From: Acidobacteriota bacterium
GTDB lineage: Bacteria; Acidobacteriota; Terriglobia; Bryobacterales; Bryobacteraceae
Length of the DNA stretch: 40,745 bases
NCBI GenBank assembly: GCA_005808865.1
Contig: SYKU01000249.1
Location: 1 to 40,745, forward strand
Direction of reading: 5' to 3'
Position numbers and translations under genes: made by a program. Shown piece after piece: positions 6,262 to 14,613 of this stretch. Below the pieces are notes generated by a model. It was not told the origin of the DNA. It did not search any database and worked only from the letters and a program-made list of their open reading frames with translations. Numbering within the stretch: the first letter of the stretch is position 1; every line of letters begins with the position of its first letter.

Positions 6262-6704
6262 CACGGATTCGTGTGGTCGAGAATGATCTTCCACCCGGCG
6301 GTGGTCTTTCGAAAGACCAAGGTGAAGAGGCCGCCCTTGTCACCGCCGCCTTCCGCTGTGCGTTTCAGGACAAAGCGGCCGATGACCGATGCGTTCTCCG
6401 GGCCGAGCGGACGAACGTCGAGGACCGTGAAGGTCAGCGTACCCATATGGTCGCGGGACGGATAACGCTTCAAGTAGTTGGCCAGCACGGCGTCCCTGCC
6501 TTTGGTTACCGTGGCTGCCACGAACGTGGTCGATTCGCCCGGTTCGTAGCCGTCCATGAAGGCGTGCAGGTCGTCGCGATTCCAGTCGTCCTGCTGCTGT
6601 TGAAGAACGGCGCGGATTTCACGTTCCTGGTCGGTTGCAACCGAGCCGAGCAGGAGGGCAGTTGACAAATACTTAACTATAGTGAATATTGGAGTATTAA
6701 TCAT
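6261..6704 (-). CDS. NTF2-like (SnoaL/DUF4440-type) protein with signal peptide
   Basis: A 147-residue protein. The N-terminus (MINTPIFTIVKYLSTALLLGS) looks like a signal peptide or membrane anchor. It is followed by an NTF2-like cone fold signature: the helix with DQEREIRAVLQQQQDDWN and DDLHAFMDGY, the segment TTFVAATVTKGRDAVL, and the end strands LFTLVFRKTTAGWKIILDH. DUF4440 proteins are small scaffolds used as ketosteroid-isomerase-like enzymes or as ligand-binding subunits. The specific role is not visible. Its start is only 21 bases from the start of the divergent porin gene, so the promoters of both must lie inside each other's coding sequence. The stop overlaps the start of the decayed membrane gene. 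Confidence 0.8.
   Translation of the reverse strand: MINTPIFTIVKYLSTALLLGSVATDQEREIRAVLQQQQDDWNRDDLHAFMDGYEPGESTTFVAATVTKGRDAVLANYLKRYPSRDHMGTLTFTVLDVRPLGPENASVIGRFVLKRTAEGGGDKGGLFTLVFRKTTAGWKIILDHTNP
6662..6690 (+). promoter_or_regulatory. Candidate sigma-70 promoter for the porin-cupredoxin-dihaem operon
   Basis: TTGACA at 6662-6667, a 17-base spacer and AATATT at 6685-6690, 35 bases before the porin start at 6726. It lies inside the 5' end of the divergent NTF2-like gene, in a locally AT-rich patch. The -35 matches consensus exactly and the -10 at four positions. Confidence 0.5.
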
Positions 6705-6725
6705 AAGGTTGTCTCTAATGTCGCT

Positions 6726-8042
6726 ATGGTGAAGTTCTTTTGTTTCGCTCCTGTTTTGTTAGCGTGCACGGCCTATGGGCAGTCTACCGCCGATTTGGAG
6801 CGTCGTGTCGGTGAGTTGACAGCCCGCGTCCAGTTTCTGGAACAGAAGCTAAACGAGCTTCTGTCGGTCAAGCCGCAACCCGTTGTGACGCCGCCGGCAG
6901 AGGCATTCGTCCCGCCGCCTGAACCTGTCTCGCCGGCTGAACCTGTTTCGCCGTTTGAAACCATTTCGGTCAGGGGTGATTCCAGGTCGAGCGCCGATCC
7001 GGAATTGCGGCTTCCAGTTTCCGGTTACATGGATTTTCATTTCAACAAGGATCGGGGTCTTCCAGGTGAGTTCGACTTTCACCGCTTCGTGCTCCTGTTC
7101 GGCCACAGCTTTTCGAGCCGGCTCAAGTTCTGGAGCGAACTGGAATTCGAGCACGCCTTCATCGGGGGCGGCGAGGAGCGGGGGGAAGTGGCGCTCGAAC
7201 AGGCCTACATCGATTTCCTCATCAAGTCGCAATTCAACCTTCGCGCCGGAATGCTGCTAGCGCCAGTCGGCATCATCAACGAGAGGCACGAACCGCCTTC
7301 GTTCAATGGAGTGGAGAGGCCCTTCGTGGAGACGTTCATTATTCCCTCGACGTGGCGCGAGATGGGCTTCGGGGCGGCGGGCGATCTGGGCCGCGGCTTC
7401 CGCTACAGGGCGTACCTGATGTCGGGTCTCGATGCGTCGCGATTTACATCCGGGGAGGGCTTCGGGTCGGGTAAGACGAACGGTTTCGGCGCTTCCTTCC
7501 GTAACCCGGCCAAGGTAGCGCGTCTCGAATACGTGGGCTTGCGGCGGCTGGCGTTGGGGGCGAGCGTCTATTCGGGTCACACCGGCTTCAACCTTAGCGG
7601 CGTCAATCCACGGGTGAGGATTCTTGACGTTGACGGCCGTTACAGCTACAGCCGCTTTGACCTCCGCGGACTGTTCGCAGACACCTGGATCTCGAAGGCG
7701 GGCGAACTGAACCGCGCACTCGAGCTCGATACGGGTACGAACCCGAATATCGCGAGCCGGATGCGCGGCGCTTACATCGAGCCGGCGGTGCACATCTTTC
7801 CGCGACGGAGCCGCCACGACCTGATTCTGTTTGCGCGGCGCGAGGCATGGAACACGCAACACAAGATGCCGGATGGTTACGTTCCGCTACCGCAGTTCGA
7901 CCGTAATTCATGGGTGGTGGGAGCGACATTCAAACCGCACGCGGACATTGCGTTCAAGTTCGACTACGGATTCAACCGGAGTGCACGTTCAATTTTCCGG
8001 CCGGCGGATTCAATCAATCTCGGCATCGGATGGTGGTTCTGA
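6726..8042 (+). CDS. Outer-membrane porin with N-terminal coiled coil
   Basis: A 438-residue protein with a signal peptide (MVKFFCFAPVLLACTAYGQS). A short heptad coiled coil follows (about residues 22-47: TADLERRVGELTARVQFLEQ), then a Pro-Val-Glu-rich linker with EPVSPAEPVSP repeats. From about residue 100 the sequence alternates polar and hydrophobic strands typical of a beta-barrel: SGYMDFHFNKD, EFDFHRFVLLFGHSF, FNLRAGMLLAPVG, and so on. It ends in a terminal aromatic motif, INLGIGWWF, the usual outer-membrane insertion signal. The coiled coil plus barrel resembles phosphate-selective porin O/P-type and related outer-membrane channels. The substrate is unknown. The stop overlaps the next gene's start (TGATG at 8040-8044). 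Context suggests it serves the redox proteins encoded downstream. Confidence 0.85.
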   Translation: MVKFFCFAPVLLACTAYGQSTADLERRVGELTARVQFLEQKLNELLSVKPQPVVTPPAEAFVPPPEPVSPAEPVSPFETISVRGDSRSSADPELRLPVSGYMDFHFNKDRGLPGEFDFHRFVLLFGHSFSSRLKFWSELEFEHAFIGGGEERGEVALEQAYIDFLIKSQFNLRAGMLLAPVGIINERHEPPSFNGVERPFVETFIIPSTWREMGFGAAGDLGRGFRYRAYLMSGLDASRFTSGEGFGSGKTNGFGASFRNPAKVARLEYVGLRRLALGASVYSGHTGFNLSGVNPRVRILDVDGRYSYSRFDLRGLFADTWISKAGELNRALELDTGTNPNIASRMRGAYIEPAVHIFPRRSRHDLILFARREAWNTQHKMPDGYVPLPQFDRNSWVVGATFKPHADIAFKFDYGFNRSARSIFRPADSINLGIGWWF

Positions 8043-8377
8043 TGAAAGCTATTCTCGCAATGCTGCTACTGGCCGCCGCGCCACCCGAGACCAAACCGGA
8101 TCGGACGGTCTCGATCGCCGCGGAGCGTTTCTTTTTTTCGCCTTCCCGCATTACGGTCAAGCAGGGGACGCTTGTGGAATTCGTTCTCACGAGCGAGGAC
8201 ACAGAGCATGGTTTCCTCTTCGCGGCCGCGAGCGTCAACGCCGTGATTCCGCAACAGGGGAAAGGCGAATTGCGCGTCAAATTCCGCGCGTTGAAGAGAG
8301 GAAAGTACCCATTTGAATGCTCGCGCGCATGCGGGGCCGGCCACACTATGATGCGCGGAGAGGTTGTGGTGAGATGA
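8042..8377 (+). CDS. Single-domain periplasmic cupredoxin with a CuA-type site
   Basis: A 111-residue protein: a hydrophobic N-terminus (MKAILAMLLLAAAPPE) for export, then one cupredoxin fold. The ligands are visible: His56 (TEHGF), then C93-x3-C97-x3-H101-x2-M104 (CSRACGAGHTMM). This spacing is that of the binuclear CuA centre of cytochrome c oxidase subunit II and nitrous oxide reductase. Type 1 blue copper sites have only one Cys. Unlike those enzymes, the protein has no transmembrane hairpin and no fused catalytic domain. Free-standing CuA-like domains can carry electrons or deliver copper. It starts at the ATG overlapping the porin stop, and its own TGA overlaps the ATG of the dihaem gene, so the three are translationally coupled. 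The fold and site are strong calls; the role is inferred. Confidence 0.85.
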   Translation: MKAILAMLLLAAAPPETKPDRTVSIAAERFFFSPSRITVKQGTLVEFVLTSEDTEHGFLFAAASVNAVIPQQGKGELRVKFRALKRGKYPFECSRACGAGHTMMRGEVVVR

Positions 8378-9525
8378 TCAAGGTCGAAGTGAGATTGGCG
8401 CTGCTATTTGCCGCCTTCGTTGCTTTTGCAGCCGAACCTGGGGCGCCGCTACCGGGCGTCACCTCCGCCCAACTCGAACTGTTTCGTTTGGGGCAGGAGG
8501 ATTTCAACGAAGTTGAAACCGCCCAGGAAGGTCTTGGCCCCGTTTTCAATGGGACAAGCTGCGGACAGTGCCATAGTGTGCCGGCGATCGGCGGGATCGC
8601 TACGATGACGGAGGTGCGCGCGGGCCACGTCGACGCCGACGGCAAGTTCACGGCGCTTAACGGGGAAACGCTCTTTAGCGTATTCTCAATCGGCAAGCAC
8701 GAATGCCAGATTCAGATTCCGCGGGAAGCGAACGTGATTGCGCGGCGTGTCCCGACTCCGCTATTCGGCGCCGGGTTGATCGAGGCGATTCCCGACGCGG
8801 CCATTCTTGCGCTTGAGAAACCCGTGGGTAACGCCGACGGTGTGAAGGGGCGCGCGTCGCGCGTCACCGACATTGCCACGCGTCAACCCCGCATCGGGCG
8901 CTTTGGCTGGAAAGCCCAACATGCGACGCTGCTCGCATTCTCGGCCGACGCCTATCGCAATGAAATGGGAATCACCAGCGACCTGTTCCCGGACGAGCTG
9001 TCACCCGGTCTTACCGCGCGCCAACTGAAACTCTGCGATTTGAAACCGGATCCGGAAGACGTCCGCAGCCGGGTGACCGGCCTGCGGGCCATCGACAATT
9101 TCGAGAATTTCATGAAATTCCTCGCGCCGCTCGATCGTGGGGCAGCGGGACCCGACGACGACGCTGGTGAGCGGCTTTTCGCCGCCGTTGGGTGCGCCGC
9201 GTGCCACGTTCCGTCGATGACCACGGGGCCGAGCGCGAATCCGCTGTTCGATCGCAAGCGCGTTAACCTCTACTCGGACCTCCTGCTTCACGACGTGGGC
9301 ACGGGCGACGGCATCGAACAGGCGGACGCGAGCGGCGACGAGATGCGAACCCCTCCGCTGTGGGGACTACGTTTCAGACGTCCGCTCCTTCACGACGGCA
9401 GCGCCGCAACGGCGCTCGAAGCGATCCGCCGGCATGGCGCGGAAGCGGAGGCGGCCCGCTCGCGATTCCTGGCGCTCGAACCGGTGGAACAAGGAAATCT
9501 GCTGGCGTTCCTCGGTTCGCTTTGA
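8374..9525 (+). CDS. Dihaem oxidoreductase, DUF1111 family (cytochrome c peroxidase-like)
   Basis: A 383-residue protein with a signal peptide (MIKVEVRLALLFAAFVAFAA) and two haem c sites, C63-GQ-CH67 and C274-AA-CH278. The central phrase IGRFGWKAQHATLLAFSADA with NEMGITSDLFP is the hallmark of the DUF1111 dihaem family, sometimes called thiol oxidoreductase. These periplasmic proteins are related in architecture to dihaem peroxidases; their substrates are mostly unproven. The start ATG at 8374 overlaps the TGA of the cupredoxin gene (ATGA). Being coupled to a CuA-like protein suggests direct electron exchange between the two in the periplasm, with the porin providing access to an external substrate or metal. 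That functional reading is inference. Confidence 0.88.
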   Translation: MIKVEVRLALLFAAFVAFAAEPGAPLPGVTSAQLELFRLGQEDFNEVETAQEGLGPVFNGTSCGQCHSVPAIGGIATMTEVRAGHVDADGKFTALNGETLFSVFSIGKHECQIQIPREANVIARRVPTPLFGAGLIEAIPDAAILALEKPVGNADGVKGRASRVTDIATRQPRIGRFGWKAQHATLLAFSADAYRNEMGITSDLFPDELSPGLTARQLKLCDLKPDPEDVRSRVTGLRAIDNFENFMKFLAPLDRGAAGPDDDAGERLFAAVGCAACHVPSMTTGPSANPLFDRKRVNLYSDLLLHDVGTGDGIEQADASGDEMRTPPLWGLRFRRPLLHDGSAATALEAIRRHGAEAEAARSRFLALEPVEQGNLLAFLGSL

Positions 9526-9944
9526 TACGCCGGCGCTGGCGTTTGCGTGGAATAAGCACGTGACAGCCTCGGTGATCGCCTCCGTTCCCAGGAAGCGAAA
9601 GGAGCGAACCTCGGTATCATACTGATCCGGTGAGCCAGTTCTGGCACCACAGAGTCGCGGCCCGGGCGTCAGGAAGCGGGTCAATGACATCGTTCCGCTT
9701 CGGACTTGCGTATGTGAATACCGAAGTTGCGCCATTCCAGCCCGAAGTGATCGCTGCCGCCCAGCACTCTCCGCGATCAGGGGAGAACGGCTGGAGAACG
9801 CGATTGCCTGCCTTTCGCCGTGATCAAGCCCTGCGGCTTTGTGGAAGCGCTCACCACGGATCATTCTACGAACATCTCTGCATATTGACCCCGCACCCTT
9901 ACGCGCGACAGGCCTACGTGGCCTCCCTGACAGCCCGTCAACCC
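9526..9944. other. Intergenic region without a confident gene
   Basis: About 420 bases between the dihaem gene and the ccsA-like fragment. Several short open frames exist on both strands. None has a ribosome-binding site with a protein-like product. On the minus strand at about 9725-9775 a stretch reads GGSDHFGLEWRNFGI, which looks protein-like but is closed by stops on both sides, so it may be a relic. No hairpin terminator was recognised. Confidence 0.4.
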
Positions 9945-10168: not shown

Positions 10169-10987
10169 ATGGCGGAACTGAGTGTACTTTGGCTGCGGAC
10201 GGCCGCCGCTCTCTACGCGCTCGGCCTGCTGCACGGGATCGTCACGCTGGTCCGGAAGCGCGACCATCTGTTCCGTCCAGCACTCGTCGCTTTCGGTTTC
10301 GCCGCGCTGCTCCACCTCGTTTCGATCGTCGAAGAAGGCGCTCTCTCCGGCTCGCTGCCCGTTAACAACATCTACGAATCGCTCTCGCTGTGCGCGATGA
10401 TTATCGCCGGCTCGTACCTGTTCGTGTATTGGCGCTACAAGATCGAATCGCTCAGCGTATTCGTTTTTCCGGTCGTCTTCATTATGACCCTGATGGGCAC
10501 GTTCGGGAACCCCATTGACGTCCACACCAGCCCCGAGGTTCGCAGCACCTGGCTCGCCATCCACATCGTCCTCGTGCTGCTCGGCTACGCGGCGCTGCTG
10601 TTTACCGCGGTCGCGTCCGTGCTCTATCTCTTTCAGGAACGAGAACTCAAACGAAAGAAGCCTCGCAACTTCTATTACAAGCTGCCGCCGCTGGGCGATC
10701 TCGACGACCTGATCTCGCGCTCCATGGCCTTCGGCTTCGTGTTCATCACGCTTGGAATCGTGGTCGGAAGCACGTGGGCATTCGTCGAGTGGGGTACCGG
10801 CTGGATCGGCGAGCCGCGAATCGGGATCTCTATTGCCACCTGGGCCATCTACCTGGCGATGGTGTTTCTGCGCGTTAACGCCGGATGGCGCGGGAGAAAA
10901 GCGGCATTGCTCTCGATCGCCGCGCTCTGCTGCTCCGCCATCACCTGGGCAGCGCACAGCGGCCTGCGGCTGGGTGGGACGCAATGA
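10169..10987 (+). CDS. HemX/CcsA-like cytochrome c assembly membrane protein
   Basis: A 272-residue membrane protein with about eight hydrophobic helices. The family marks are the conserved histidines in LLHGIVTL, ALLHLVSIVEE and WLAIHIVLVLLGYAALLFTA, and a WWD-like region GSTWAFVEWGTGWIGEP. The Trp-rich loop of true CcsA/ResC haem-handling proteins is only partly kept. Proteins of this type next to hemA are called HemX; related ones hold haem for cytochrome c maturation. The position as first gene of the hem operon fits control of haem synthesis or haem export to the periplasm. The TGA overlaps the start of hemA (ATGA at 10984-10987), so translation is coupled. I leave the symbol empty because HemX and CcsA cannot be separated here. 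Confidence 0.82.
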   Translation: MAELSVLWLRTAAALYALGLLHGIVTLVRKRDHLFRPALVAFGFAALLHLVSIVEEGALSGSLPVNNIYESLSLCAMIIAGSYLFVYWRYKIESLSVFVFPVVFIMTLMGTFGNPIDVHTSPEVRSTWLAIHIVLVLLGYAALLFTAVASVLYLFQERELKRKKPRNFYYKLPPLGDLDDLISRSMAFGFVFITLGIVVGSTWAFVEWGTGWIGEPRIGISIATWAIYLAMVFLRVNAGWRGRKAALLSIAALCCSAITWAAHSGLRLGGTQ

Positions 10988-12249
10988 GAGTTTCTATCAC
11001 CGGCGTCAGCCACAAGTCGGCGCCCGTCGAAGTGCGCGAACGACTGGCGTTTCCCACCGCGGCGCTCGAAGAAGCGGTGGGGAACCTAAAGTCTCGCGAC
11101 GGAGTTTCGGAGGCCGTGATTCTCTCGACGTGCAATCGCGTCGAGATCGCTCTCTCCTGCGAAGACGGCGCGGATTCCGAATTGACTGTGGGGCGGTTCC
11201 TGCTCGAAACGAGGCCTGTCACCTCCGATATGGTGACGCCCTACCTTCAGAGATTCGAGGGACGCGAGGCGATCCATCATCTCTTCCGCGTGGCCGCAAG
11301 CCTCGAATCCATGGTCGTGGGCGAGCCTCAGATTCTCGGCCAGTTGAAGCACGCCTATGCCGTCGCTAAGGCCTCTGGCGCGCTGTCGGGAACGCTTGAA
11401 GGCATTGTGACGCAGGCGTTCCGCGTGGCGAAGCGGGTGAGGTCGGAGACCGGAATCGGACAGATGGCGGTTTCCGTCAGCTACGCGGCGGTGGAGCTGG
11501 CGCGCAAGATTTTCGGATCGCTGGCGTCGCGCGGCGTGCTGATCGTAGGGGCCGGCAAGATGTCGGAACTGGCCGCGAAGCACCTGCTGCGCTCCGGTGC
11601 GTCGCGCATCTTTGTGACGAACCGCACGCACGAACGCGCCCTCGAAATGGCCGCGCTGTTTCATGGCACACCGGTCGAGTACGCGCGATTCCTCGGGATT
11701 CTGCCCGAAGTCGATATCGTGATCACGTCGAGCGGCGCGCCTCACTTCATCATCCGAAAGGAAGACATGCAGCGCGTGATCGCCGCGCGCAAGAACCGCC
11801 CGATGTTCCTCATCGATATCGCGGTGCCGCGAAACATCGAGCCTTCGGTCAACAAGATCGACAACGTATTTCTCTACGACATCGACGACTTGCAGGAAGT
11901 GGTGAACTCGAACGTGCGTGAACGGCAAAAGGAAGCCGACCACGCCGAACGCATCGTATCTCAGGAAGTGGAACGCATGATGGCGCGCCTCAAGGTGCAG
12001 GAGATCGCGCCGACCATCGTGAACCTGCAGGCGCAGCTGGAACAGATTCGCGCCGCGGAAATGGAGAAAATGAGGCGGAAGCTCGGTCCGCTCACGCCGC
12101 AGATGGAAGAGGCGCTTGAGGGCATGACGCGGGCGCTGATCAACAAGATCGCGCACGGGCCGATCGCGGAACTGCGGAATCAGGCCGGCCAGCCCGACGG
12201 CGCGCTTGTGATCAACGCGATTCGAAAGGTTTTTCATCTTCGTGACTGA
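10984..12249 (+). CDS. hemA: Glutamyl-tRNA reductase HemA
   Basis: This NADPH enzyme reduces glutamyl-tRNA to glutamate-1-semialdehyde, the first committed step of C5-pathway tetrapyrrole synthesis. The 421-residue protein has the N-terminal catalytic segment with Cys50 in ILSTCNRVEI. It also has the signature HLFRVAASLESMVVGEPQIL, the NADPH-binding glycine motif VLIVGAGKMSELAAKHL, and the C-terminal helical dimerisation domain with RERQKEADHAERIV. Length is normal for the family. The ATG at 10984 sits in the ATGA overlap with the upstream membrane protein gene. It overlaps hemC by eight bases at its end. Firm identification. Confidence 0.97.
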   Translation: MRVSITGVSHKSAPVEVRERLAFPTAALEEAVGNLKSRDGVSEAVILSTCNRVEIALSCEDGADSELTVGRFLLETRPVTSDMVTPYLQRFEGREAIHHLFRVAASLESMVVGEPQILGQLKHAYAVAKASGALSGTLEGIVTQAFRVAKRVRSETGIGQMAVSVSYAAVELARKIFGSLASRGVLIVGAGKMSELAAKHLLRSGASRIFVTNRTHERALEMAALFHGTPVEYARFLGILPEVDIVITSSGAPHFIIRKEDMQRVIAARKNRPMFLIDIAVPRNIEPSVNKIDNVFLYDIDDLQEVVNSNVRERQKEADHAERIVSQEVERMMARLKVQEIAPTIVNLQAQLEQIRAAEMEKMRRKLGPLTPQMEEALEGMTRALINKIAHGPIAELRNQAGQPDGALVINAIRKVFHLRD

Positions 12250-13141
12250 GTTGATTATCGGGTCGAGAGGCTCGCAACTGGCGTTGTGGCAGGCGCATTG
12301 GGTGAAGGCGAAGCTTGAGGAATTGGGGCATGCCTGCCGTATCGAAATCATCAAAACCACGGGCGACCGTGTGACGGAGCTGGCGCTCGCCGATACCGGC
12401 ACAAAAGGCCTGTTCACTAAGGAGATCGAGGAAGCGCTACTCGAAAGACGCGTCGATTTGGCGGTGCATAGTTTGAAGGATTTGCCCACCGATCTGCCGG
12501 ACCCGTCGCTTCAACTGGCCGCGATTCCGGCACGCGAAGACCCGTTCGATGCGCTCGTGGGCAAGCGTTTGAACGAACTTCCTCAGGGCGCTCGCGTTGG
12601 TACGAGTTCTCCCAGGCGCGCGGCGCAGCTTCGGCACGAGCGTCCGGATCTGCTCGTCGAATCCGTCCGAGGCAACGTGGACACGCGGCTGAGGAAGCTC
12701 GATGAGGGCCAATTCGCGGCCATCGTTCTGGCTTCCGCCGGACTGCGGAGGCTAGGCTGGGCGTCGCGCATCGCGGAATCGTTCGCGCCGGAAGTGATGT
12801 GTCCCGCGGTGGGACAAGGTGCGCTCGCGATCGAAACGATTAGGGAAAGCGCGGGCGCGGCCGCTTGCGCGGCGCTCGATCACCGCGAGACGCGACTGGC
12901 GGTACAGGCGGAACGCGTTGTGCTCGGAGCGCTCGGCGGTGGGTGCAAAGTGCCAATCGGAGCCTATGCACGCATGGAACAGGGATCGCTACGAATCATG
13001 GCTGTTGTGATTTCACCCGATGGCGCGTCGTTGATTCGCGATTCCGAGGCGGGCGCCGCCACCGATGCGGAAGCGTTGGGACGAAACCTCGCGGCGAAGT
13101 TGCTGGAGCGCGGCGCGGACGAGATTTTGAAGCGCCTATGA
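12242..13141 (+). CDS. hemC: Porphobilinogen deaminase (hydroxymethylbilane synthase) HemC
   Basis: HemC polymerises four porphobilinogen molecules into hydroxymethylbilane. The 299-residue sequence has the N-terminal IIGSRGSQLALWQ, the substrate-side loops KTTGDR and HSLKDLPTDLP, and the arginine motif GTSSPRRAAQL. The cofactor cysteine is Cys235 in GGGCKVPIGAY, where the dipyrromethane cofactor is attached. The start is a GTG at 12242, overlapping the end of hemA. The stop overlaps the start of the fused cobA-hemD gene (ATGA at 13138-13141). The enzyme's product is the substrate of the HemD half of the next protein. Confidence 0.97.
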   Translation: MTELIIGSRGSQLALWQAHWVKAKLEELGHACRIEIIKTTGDRVTELALADTGTKGLFTKEIEEALLERRVDLAVHSLKDLPTDLPDPSLQLAAIPAREDPFDALVGKRLNELPQGARVGTSSPRRAAQLRHERPDLLVESVRGNVDTRLRKLDEGQFAAIVLASAGLRRLGWASRIAESFAPEVMCPAVGQGALAIETIRESAGAAACAALDHRETRLAVQAERVVLGALGGGCKVPIGAYARMEQGSLRIMAVVISPDGASLIRDSEAGAATDAEALGRNLAAKLLERGADEILKRL

Positions 13142-14613
13142 GCAAAGTCTATCTGGTCGGGGCCGGGCCGGGCGACGCGCGCCTCATCACGTGCCGCGGC
13201 CGCGAAGTGCTCGAATCCGCCTCCTGCGTGCTTTACGATCATCTTGTCAGCCAGTCGCTGCTTGATCTTGCGCCGCCAGAAGCTGAGCGAATATACGTAG
13301 GCAAGAAGCGCGCCCTGCACGCGTACACCCAGGAAGAGATCTGCGCGATGCTCATCGACCGCGCCCGCCACGGCGGACGCGTCGTGCGGTTGAAGGGCGG
13401 CGACCCATTCATTTTCGGACGCGGAGGCGAAGAGGCGGAAGCGCTGTTTGACGCGGGGATTCCGTTTGAAGTGGTGCCGGGAGTGACAACGCCGCTCGGA
13501 ATCGCAGCGTACACGGGAGTGCCGCTCACGCACCGCGAGCATACTTCGGTGGTCACGTTTGTCACGGGTCACGATGTCGCGCAGATCGATTGGGAACGCG
13601 TGGGCGGGGCCGACACGCTGGTGCTCTTCATGGGACTCACGAATTTTGCCGGGATCGCGGCGGAAATTGTAAGGCGCGGCCGGTCTCCCGAGACGCCCGC
13701 GATGGTGGTGCGCTGGGCCACTCTACCGTCTCAGCAGACCCTGACGGGGACGCTCGCAACCCTGAGCGACCTGATTCGAGGCGCGAATCTCAAGCCGCCG
13801 GCAACCATCGTGATCGGCGACGTGGTCCGCCTTCGCGAGAAGCTCAACTGGTTTGAGCGCCTGCCGCTGTTCGGCAAACGTATGGCAGTGACGCGCGCCC
13901 GCGGCCAGGCCGACGCGCTCTCCGCGAAATTGAGCGAACTGGGCGCCGAGACCGTCGAGGTTCCGACAATCGAAATCCTCCCCGCCGAAGACTATGGGCC
14001 GCTCGACCGCTCCATCGAATCCCTGCCGGAATACGACTGGCTCGTCTTCACGAGCGCGAACGGTGTACGCTTCTTTCTCGACCGGCTTCGGAAATCCCGC
14101 TTCGATCTTCGCGCCATCCGCGGCCGCATCTGCGCCATAGGACCGGCGACGGGCGCGGCGATCGAGGCCCTTCATTTGAAAGTGGATTTGACGGGACGGG
14201 AGTTTGTCGCGGAGGGATTGTTGGAAGCCTTCGCCGCGCACGATGTCGCGGGCAAACGCATACTGCTCCCGCGGGCGGCCGTCGCGCGCGATATACTTCC
14301 AACCACTCTCAGAGATCGCGGCGCTCTAGTGGACGTCGTCACCGCCTACCGCACGGTATCGCCGGAAGACGCCGCGGAGCGCATCCGTATAGCCTTCGAC
14401 GGTTCGCGAAAACCCCACTGGGTCTTGTTTACCAGTTCCTCGACGGTCGAGAATTTTGTCCGCGCGGCGGGCGCGGCGACGCTCGCGGGAGTGAAAGTGG
14501 CGGTCATCGGCCCAGTAACAGCGTCGACCGCGCGGCGGCACGGAATCGCCATAGACGCGGCCGCTGAAGTCTTCACTGCAGGCGGCCTGATTGATGCAAT
14601 CCTCAGATCGTAA
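13138..14613 (+). CDS. Fused uroporphyrinogen-III methyltransferase and uroporphyrinogen-III synthase (CobA-HemD)
   Basis: A 491-residue two-domain enzyme. Residues 1 to about 240 are an SUMT/CobA methyltransferase: YLVGAGPGD at the start, RLKGGDPFIFGRGGEE near residue 85, PGVTTPLGIAAYTGVPLTHR. This half makes precorrin-2 from uroporphyrinogen III with two SAM. Residues from about 245 to the end are uroporphyrinogen-III synthase (HemD): MAVTRARGQADALSAKL, YDWLVFTSANGVRFF, and HWVLFTSSSTVENFV near the C-terminus. HemD cyclises hydroxymethylbilane made by the preceding gene. The fusion puts the branch-point intermediate directly at the sirohaem/cobalamin branch. Such fusions are known in several phyla. 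HemB and later haem enzymes are not in the window. Confidence 0.95.
   Translation: MSKVYLVGAGPGDARLITCRGREVLESASCVLYDHLVSQSLLDLAPPEAERIYVGKKRALHAYTQEEICAMLIDRARHGGRVVRLKGGDPFIFGRGGEEAEALFDAGIPFEVVPGVTTPLGIAAYTGVPLTHREHTSVVTFVTGHDVAQIDWERVGGADTLVLFMGLTNFAGIAAEIVRRGRSPETPAMVVRWATLPSQQTLTGTLATLSDLIRGANLKPPATIVIGDVVRLREKLNWFERLPLFGKRMAVTRARGQADALSAKLSELGAETVEVPTIEILPAEDYGPLDRSIESLPEYDWLVFTSANGVRFFLDRLRKSRFDLRAIRGRICAIGPATGAAIEALHLKVDLTGREFVAEGLLEAFAAHDVAGKRILLPRAAVARDILPTTLRDRGALVDVVTAYRTVSPEDAAERIRIAFDGSRKPHWVLFTSSSTVENFVRAAGAATLAGVKVAVIGPVTASTARRHGIAIDAAAEVFTAGGLIDAILRS

Follow-up and report, generated by a model that had tools for sequence, protein, structure and literature searches.

Proteins of the DUF1111 (DHOR) family have been linked to imelysin operons of iron uptake (PMC3143127), and MnoP of Bradyrhizobium is an outer-membrane protein proposed for the entry of Mn(II) (PMC9334652). 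The canonical CuA motif has been given as Hx34Cx3Cx3Hx2M (PMC6189053). In Granulicella, mntH and mntR-like genes have been described, and no mention of a porin, a cupredoxin or a peroxidase was found in the available part of that source (PMC7315648). How manganese and iron pass the outer membrane of diderms, and whether redox chemistry is needed for it, is little known, and knowledge of Mn/Fe uptake is poorest in Acidobacteriota, a dominant soil phylum. The component families of the locus reported here are known. Among the matches listed for open-licence PMC text, none described a porin-CuA-DHOR triple or these families joined to a free canonical CuA protein with Mn/Fe-type control.

We analysed a stretch of 40,745 nucleotides (the window) from a Bryobacterales member of Acidobacteriota, which contains the following features:

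6662..6690, + strand: sigma-70-like promoter TTGACA-17-AATATT, 10/12 consensus matches
6673..6686, + strand: putative DtxR/MntR-type operator TTAACTATAGTGAA, overlapping the promoter spacer and the first bases of the second hexamer
6726..8042, + strand: porin gene, 438 aa, stop TGA at 8040-8042
8042..8377, + strand: gene of a free-standing CuA-type cupredoxin, 111 aa, ATG at 8042-8044, stop TGA at 8375-8377
8374..9525, + strand: gene of a dihaem DUF1111/DHOR protein, 383 aa, ATG at 8374-8376
DHOR residues 63-67 and 274-278, + strand: haem sites CxxCH; E197 and H354 are also conserved

The ORF coordinates agree with the first-pass annotation, which had described three genes overlapping by a few bases: the porin/cupredoxin junction TGATG is a 1-nt overlap and the cupredoxin/DUF1111 junction ATGA a 4-nt overlap. 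The porin-cupredoxin-DHOR triple is a self-contained operon, and its gene order is not due to chance, since it is kept in 58 non-redundant copies. Pfam identified none of the three operon genes as M75 or FTR1, which would have placed the triple among EfeUOB/imelysin systems. The promoter is a consensus match only, and the scan of positions 6550-9800 found 1 such match where 0.5 were expected in shuffles.

To describe the distribution of the triple, all sets were merged at 98% DHOR identity, giving at least 58 non-redundant triples, nearly all from Acidobacteriota records; L116, where the cupredoxin was not detected, is not among them, and neither are L090 and L115, in which a contig end truncates the porin. 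Among the 61 nearest genomes (the window's included), 14 encode a close cupredoxin (E <= 1.3e-29), and all 14 have the porin-cupredoxin-DHOR order, one with its porin cut by a contig end. Co-occurrence elsewhere, which the first-pass annotation had named as its own check, is therefore borne out. In a phylum-wide sample of 396 genomes, a cupredoxin of at least 130 bits was found in 19, and porin and DHOR adjoin it in 18 of these, with one DHOR truncated at a contig end. The one exception, the complete genome G185 (L162), has the cupredoxin and a piece of the DHOR, and the porin is absent; L162 appears to be a decayed or rearranged copy. The same sample held a close porin alone in G084 and a close DHOR alone in G192 and G447. 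A scan of named genomes recovered at least 48 loci with all three genes among the best 80 of at least 560 relatives. Distant DHORs from Verrucomicrobia and Betaproteobacteria records had neither porin nor cupredoxin among the matches listed. Some triple-bearing MAG records are titled Opitutaceae, Cyanobacterium or Acidimicrobiia, and two loci titled as other phyla, L097 and L119, match G243 and G227, which are placed in the window's phylum. The triple is carried by many soil and water Acidobacteriota.

On a DHOR tree of 94 rows, built by a quick method and with six rows lacking upstream DNA left uncounted, the triple label changes 3 times, as against 24.6 times in shuffles. The operon therefore probably arose once and has mostly been inherited. 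Genome G034 carries two extra porin-cupredoxin pairs without a DHOR, followed by ECF-type sigma genes (L075:346-2212 and L076:5065-6311); L076 also carries genes of CorA, SelO, MsrA and MsrB type. In genomes of family f8 (L163, L164 and others), free-standing second-tier CuA-like cupredoxins of ~60-85 bits occur without porin or close DHOR.

Most flanking genes were rejected as clues to function, as the neighbours vary between loci: Pfam searches of selected neighbours gave, among others, an RND pump, a pyruvate oxidoreductase-type enzyme, an amidohydrolase, LexA and an S13 peptidase. Only a DtxR/MntR-type gene recurs among them, with FeoB at two loci. Downstream of the operon in the window (10169-14613) lie a cytochrome c assembly gene (PF01578) and then ORFs of haem-supply type, which by eye resemble hemA, hemC and uroporphyrinogen methyltransferase/synthase.

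The recurring DtxR/MntR-family gene lies within 1.5 kb of the triple in 19 of the 58 loci, either upstream of the porin in divergent orientation or downstream of the DHOR, and its product has Fe_dep_repress, Fe_dep_repr_C and FeoA domains. Across 32 genomes we counted 47 genes of this type; in eight of the genomes such a gene adjoins the triple, and several of these eight showed no second one. FeoB adjoins the regulator/triple region at L108 and at L116. Among the loci with a lone DHOR, taken as a control, only L116 showed the regulator; a porin accompanies the DHOR there, and no cupredoxin was detected. No DtxR/MntR-type gene stands beside the triple in the window, and the single regulator of the window's genome (G000:C395) is 63-68% identical to the triple-adjacent ones. 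At the metal site of the regulators, the position of DtxR C102 is occupied by E, and that of M10 by N or D. These residues are nearer to the list published for MntR (PMC4805248). The best NCBIfam match of the regulator is an MntR model, below its cut-off. Manganese is thus favoured over iron, without being proven.

The putative operator is palindromic, and similar boxes precede the porin in most Bryobacterales-type loci. Upstream regions could be compared for 56 of the 58 triples, those of L065 and L099 being too short. With at most one mismatch, a first spelling, A (TTARSYNNRSYTAA), occurs in 21 of the 56 porin upstream regions, where ~0.2 are expected in flanking DNA, and a second spelling, B (TTTTGANNNNTCAAAA), found in other lineages, occurs in 16 of the 56 (0.15 expected). 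Allowing one mismatch for A or two for B, 44 of the 56 regions contain a box (~0.7 expected), and 12 contain neither. Because the patterns were derived from these same upstream regions, the independent test lies elsewhere in the genomes.

In the 5.7-Mb genome of the window (G000), a search for TTMACTATRGTKAA that allowed one mismatch gave two places only, and the exact one is the promoter of the triple. A box related to the window's is found at the start of the high-scoring class of Nramp genes in all five Bryobacterales-type genomes (G000, G001, G002, G005 and G015), with 16 nt between box and ATG in G000. Of 15 Nramp genes of the second class that were inspected, none has a box upstream (L219 has one site inside the gene), and spelling A is absent from the Nramp regions of G037, G088, G155, G320, G407 and G185. 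Nramp boxes were found only in these five genomes, which belong to f1, and in G176, G227 and G344.

The second spelling (TTTTGA-N4-TCAAAA) was scanned in 11 whole genomes. G227 and G344 each have only two exact B sites, at the triple and in the mntR-like/Nramp intergenic region, with six and two one-mismatch sites elsewhere, respectively. The only two B sites of G250 are at the triple and in a dtxR/dtxR-feoB intergenic region, those of G176 at the triple and Nramp, and the single B site of G243 is at the triple. G167 has B sites at the triple (one mismatch), at dtxR and at one more place, and G352 at the triple (one mismatch), at dtxR and at two more; in G137 the only B site is at dtxR. G088 has no B site, and the single B sites of G320 and G407 lie away from the triple. 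The dtxR-feoB loci of G034, G047, G049, G054, G068 and G397 are likewise preceded by boxes. A third exact TTTTGANNNNTCAAAA site in G167 (L237:4297) and in G352 (L238:4110) is divergent from transport-type genes, and by eye adjoins a putative outer-membrane protein gene.

Together, an operator common to metal-transport genes, as defines an MntR/DtxR regulon, was found at the triple, and the triple is very probably a member of an MntR-type (DtxR-family, manganese/iron-responsive) regulon. The assignment of the predicted operator to a DtxR/MntR-family regulator rests on position. As the operator is common to Nramp, mntR and dtxR-feoB loci, it points to manganese/iron homeostasis. The first-pass annotation had named a metal or an organic substrate as possibly entering through the porin; a metal is supported as the likely theme, and nothing was found in support of an organic substrate.

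We propose that the operon works in the acquisition or handling of manganese and/or iron in the cell envelope, a proposal to which we give an even chance of being right. A sensor without its metal would lift the repression of the operon. The porin would then admit the metal or a small complex to the periplasm, in the way proposed for MnoP and Mn(II) in Bradyrhizobium, and the cupredoxin and the DHOR would form a redox relay that brings or holds the metal in the divalent form for Nramp or FeoB. Such a relay, acting on manganese or iron, would account for the joint regulation of electron carriers and importers. Co-regulation does not by itself give the reaction, since metal-starvation regulons also hold stress genes. 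We regard as tentative and rather unlikely the narrower version, in which a dedicated outer-membrane metal port is joined by a CuA/dihaem relay that reduces periplasmic Fe(III), Mn(III) or Mn(IV) for Nramp/FeoB.

The first-pass annotation had also described the porin as a dedicated barrel, and the predicted fold supports a real barrel. Against Pfam the porin reached Porin_O_P only at a borderline score (20.9 bits, equal to the cut-off), and its alignment, run as a profile against the PDB, returned chance matches only. An AlphaFold2 model from 61 rows (pLDDT 85) has an N-terminal helix (21-47) followed by a 16-strand barrel, and Foldseek matched it to OmpC/OmpF/OprP-type porins (best E 4e-13), so that the predicted model belongs with the general 16-strand porins. 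Residues H105, D117, H119, H127, E138, E140 and E142, in strands 1-3 and each at least 98% conserved, are predicted to form an inward ladder, as judged from alternation and hydrophobicity rather than from coordinates. The net charge of the barrel ranges from -18 to +12, a spread too wide to support a general cation preference.

With a porin and redox proteins together in one operon, and transfer between a cupredoxin and a dihaem cytochrome known from Acidithiobacillus (PMC5982212), the porin could instead hold its redox partners so that electrons cross the outer membrane, in a respiratory or extracellular conduit. Mtr/Pio-type conduits combine a large barrel with a multihaem cytochrome, whereas here the predicted barrel is a general-porin fold of 16 strands and the partner has two haem motifs. 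The regulation is moreover tied to Nramp/feoB, and we consider such a conduit improbable.

The cupredoxin carries the ligands H56, C93, C97, H101 and M104 (codon starts 8207, 8318, 8330, 8342 and 8351). Its upstream spacing is Hx36, versus Hx34 in the published CuA motif, and the remaining spacing fits. C-x3-C-x3-H-x2-M is present in 58/58 triples and HGF in 57/58, the remaining one being masked by X. It matches Cupredoxin_1 in Pfam (8e-12) and COX2 only below the cut-off; its best PDB matches are CuA domains of oxidase subunit II (6pty, 1e-12). The earlier description, a CuA protein with exact C-x3-C-x3-H-x2-M spacing plus an upstream His and no oxidase domain, thus holds for all five canonical ligands and for the free 111-aa form. 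The protein is of CuA type by its ligand set, and the copper centre is predicted. Plasmid records contained weak cupredoxin relatives only (18 records, all <60% identity).

The third protein matches PF06537 with 161.8 bits (cut-off 22; 3e-47) and has two CxxCH motifs, which makes it a DHOR/DUF1111 member, dihaem as first annotated. In the DHOR alignment, the first CxxCH is kept in 93/94 rows (the other is a gap) and the second in 94/94; an EMG motif is conserved as E197 (94/94), M198 (93/94) and G199 (94/94), and H354 is found in all 92 rows with a readable letter. In profile alignments, EMG aligns with a region of the CcP structure 3o5c that we take to be the catalytic-Glu region, and H354 falls on a Met of 1iqc, 3o5c and 9qdt that is presumably the axial ligand of the C-terminal CcP haem. 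By alignment, then, H354 stands where classical bacterial cytochrome c peroxidases have their axial Met, which argues that the DHOR is not a plain CcP; bis-His ligation via H354 is an idea. A DHOR model predicted from a 14-row alignment reached a pLDDT of 38. G002 has a second, lone DHOR copy (L079:5789-7006), 55% identical to the operon DHOR, with a broken relative in G001. In Verrucomicrobia records, an MbnP + MauG-type-domain protein is encoded directly upstream of a lone DHOR (L149:2115-3896, with a cluster mate in L156), another copper/dihaem link.

Cupredoxins are known electron donors of CcP/MauG-type enzymes. The dihaem protein could be a peroxidase of the CcP/MauG kind, reduced by the CuA cupredoxin, with the porin as an accessory, and stand in for Mn-dependent protection when manganese or iron is short. 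Manganese shortage causes oxidative stress (PMC9334652), and SelO, MsrA and MsrB-type genes lie within ~6 kb downstream of one of the paralogous porin-cupredoxin pairs (L076). As the catalytic-Glu region is aligned with 3o5c and kept (E197 94/94), such peroxide defence is the strongest rival. However, it leaves a strictly kept, dedicated porin unexplained, and with H354 in place of the CcP Met (92/92) the high-potential electron-entry haem would not be conserved as such; we think this reading possible but on balance doubtful. The occurrence of DUF1111 in imelysin/Efe-like iron operons (PMC3143127) raises the opposite reaction, a ferroxidase or Mn(II) oxidase in which Fe(II) or Mn(II) would give up electrons to DHOR/CuA, on the model of oxidative iron-uptake schemes. 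Such oxidation would oppose Nramp and FeoB, which carry divalent metal, and it seems to us a poor prospect.

If the acquisition or handling of manganese and iron is indeed the role of the operon, its canonical CuA centre would put a copper site known from respiration to a new use, in metal homeostasis, and for the DUF1111 family a role would emerge that can be tested. Were redox-coupled acquisition true, a free-standing canonical CuA protein would have a role outside respiration.

The cupredoxin resembles the CuA domains of oxidase subunit II in fold, by profile, and in the full His-Cys-Cys-His-Met set, but it is a free 111-aa protein in an operon without an oxidase or N2O-reductase partner. 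With the PmoD/AmoD CuA protein it shares the occurrence of CuA outside oxidases, whereas PmoD uses a Cys/Met/His set at a dimer interface and the window cupredoxin a canonical single-domain set (PMC6189053). The DHOR is distantly homologous to the bacterial dihaem cytochrome c peroxidases and MauG, including the catalytic-Glu region, and differs from them in that His354 takes the place of the axial Met that binds the C-terminal haem. MnoP is Mur-regulated, unlike the triple, and to our knowledge has no redox partners. By its described role it is similar, an outer-membrane protein proposed for the entry of Mn (PMC9334652). DUF1111 proteins with imelysin/Efe-like iron operons share with the triple the dihaem family, the metal-uptake context and the cupredoxin theme (EfeO), while the triple is without imelysin or FTR1 and has a separate CuA cupredoxin and a porin (PMC3143127). 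The imelysin operon of P. aeruginosa is Fur-regulated (PMC3143127), whereas the triple is predicted to be under DtxR/MntR-type control.
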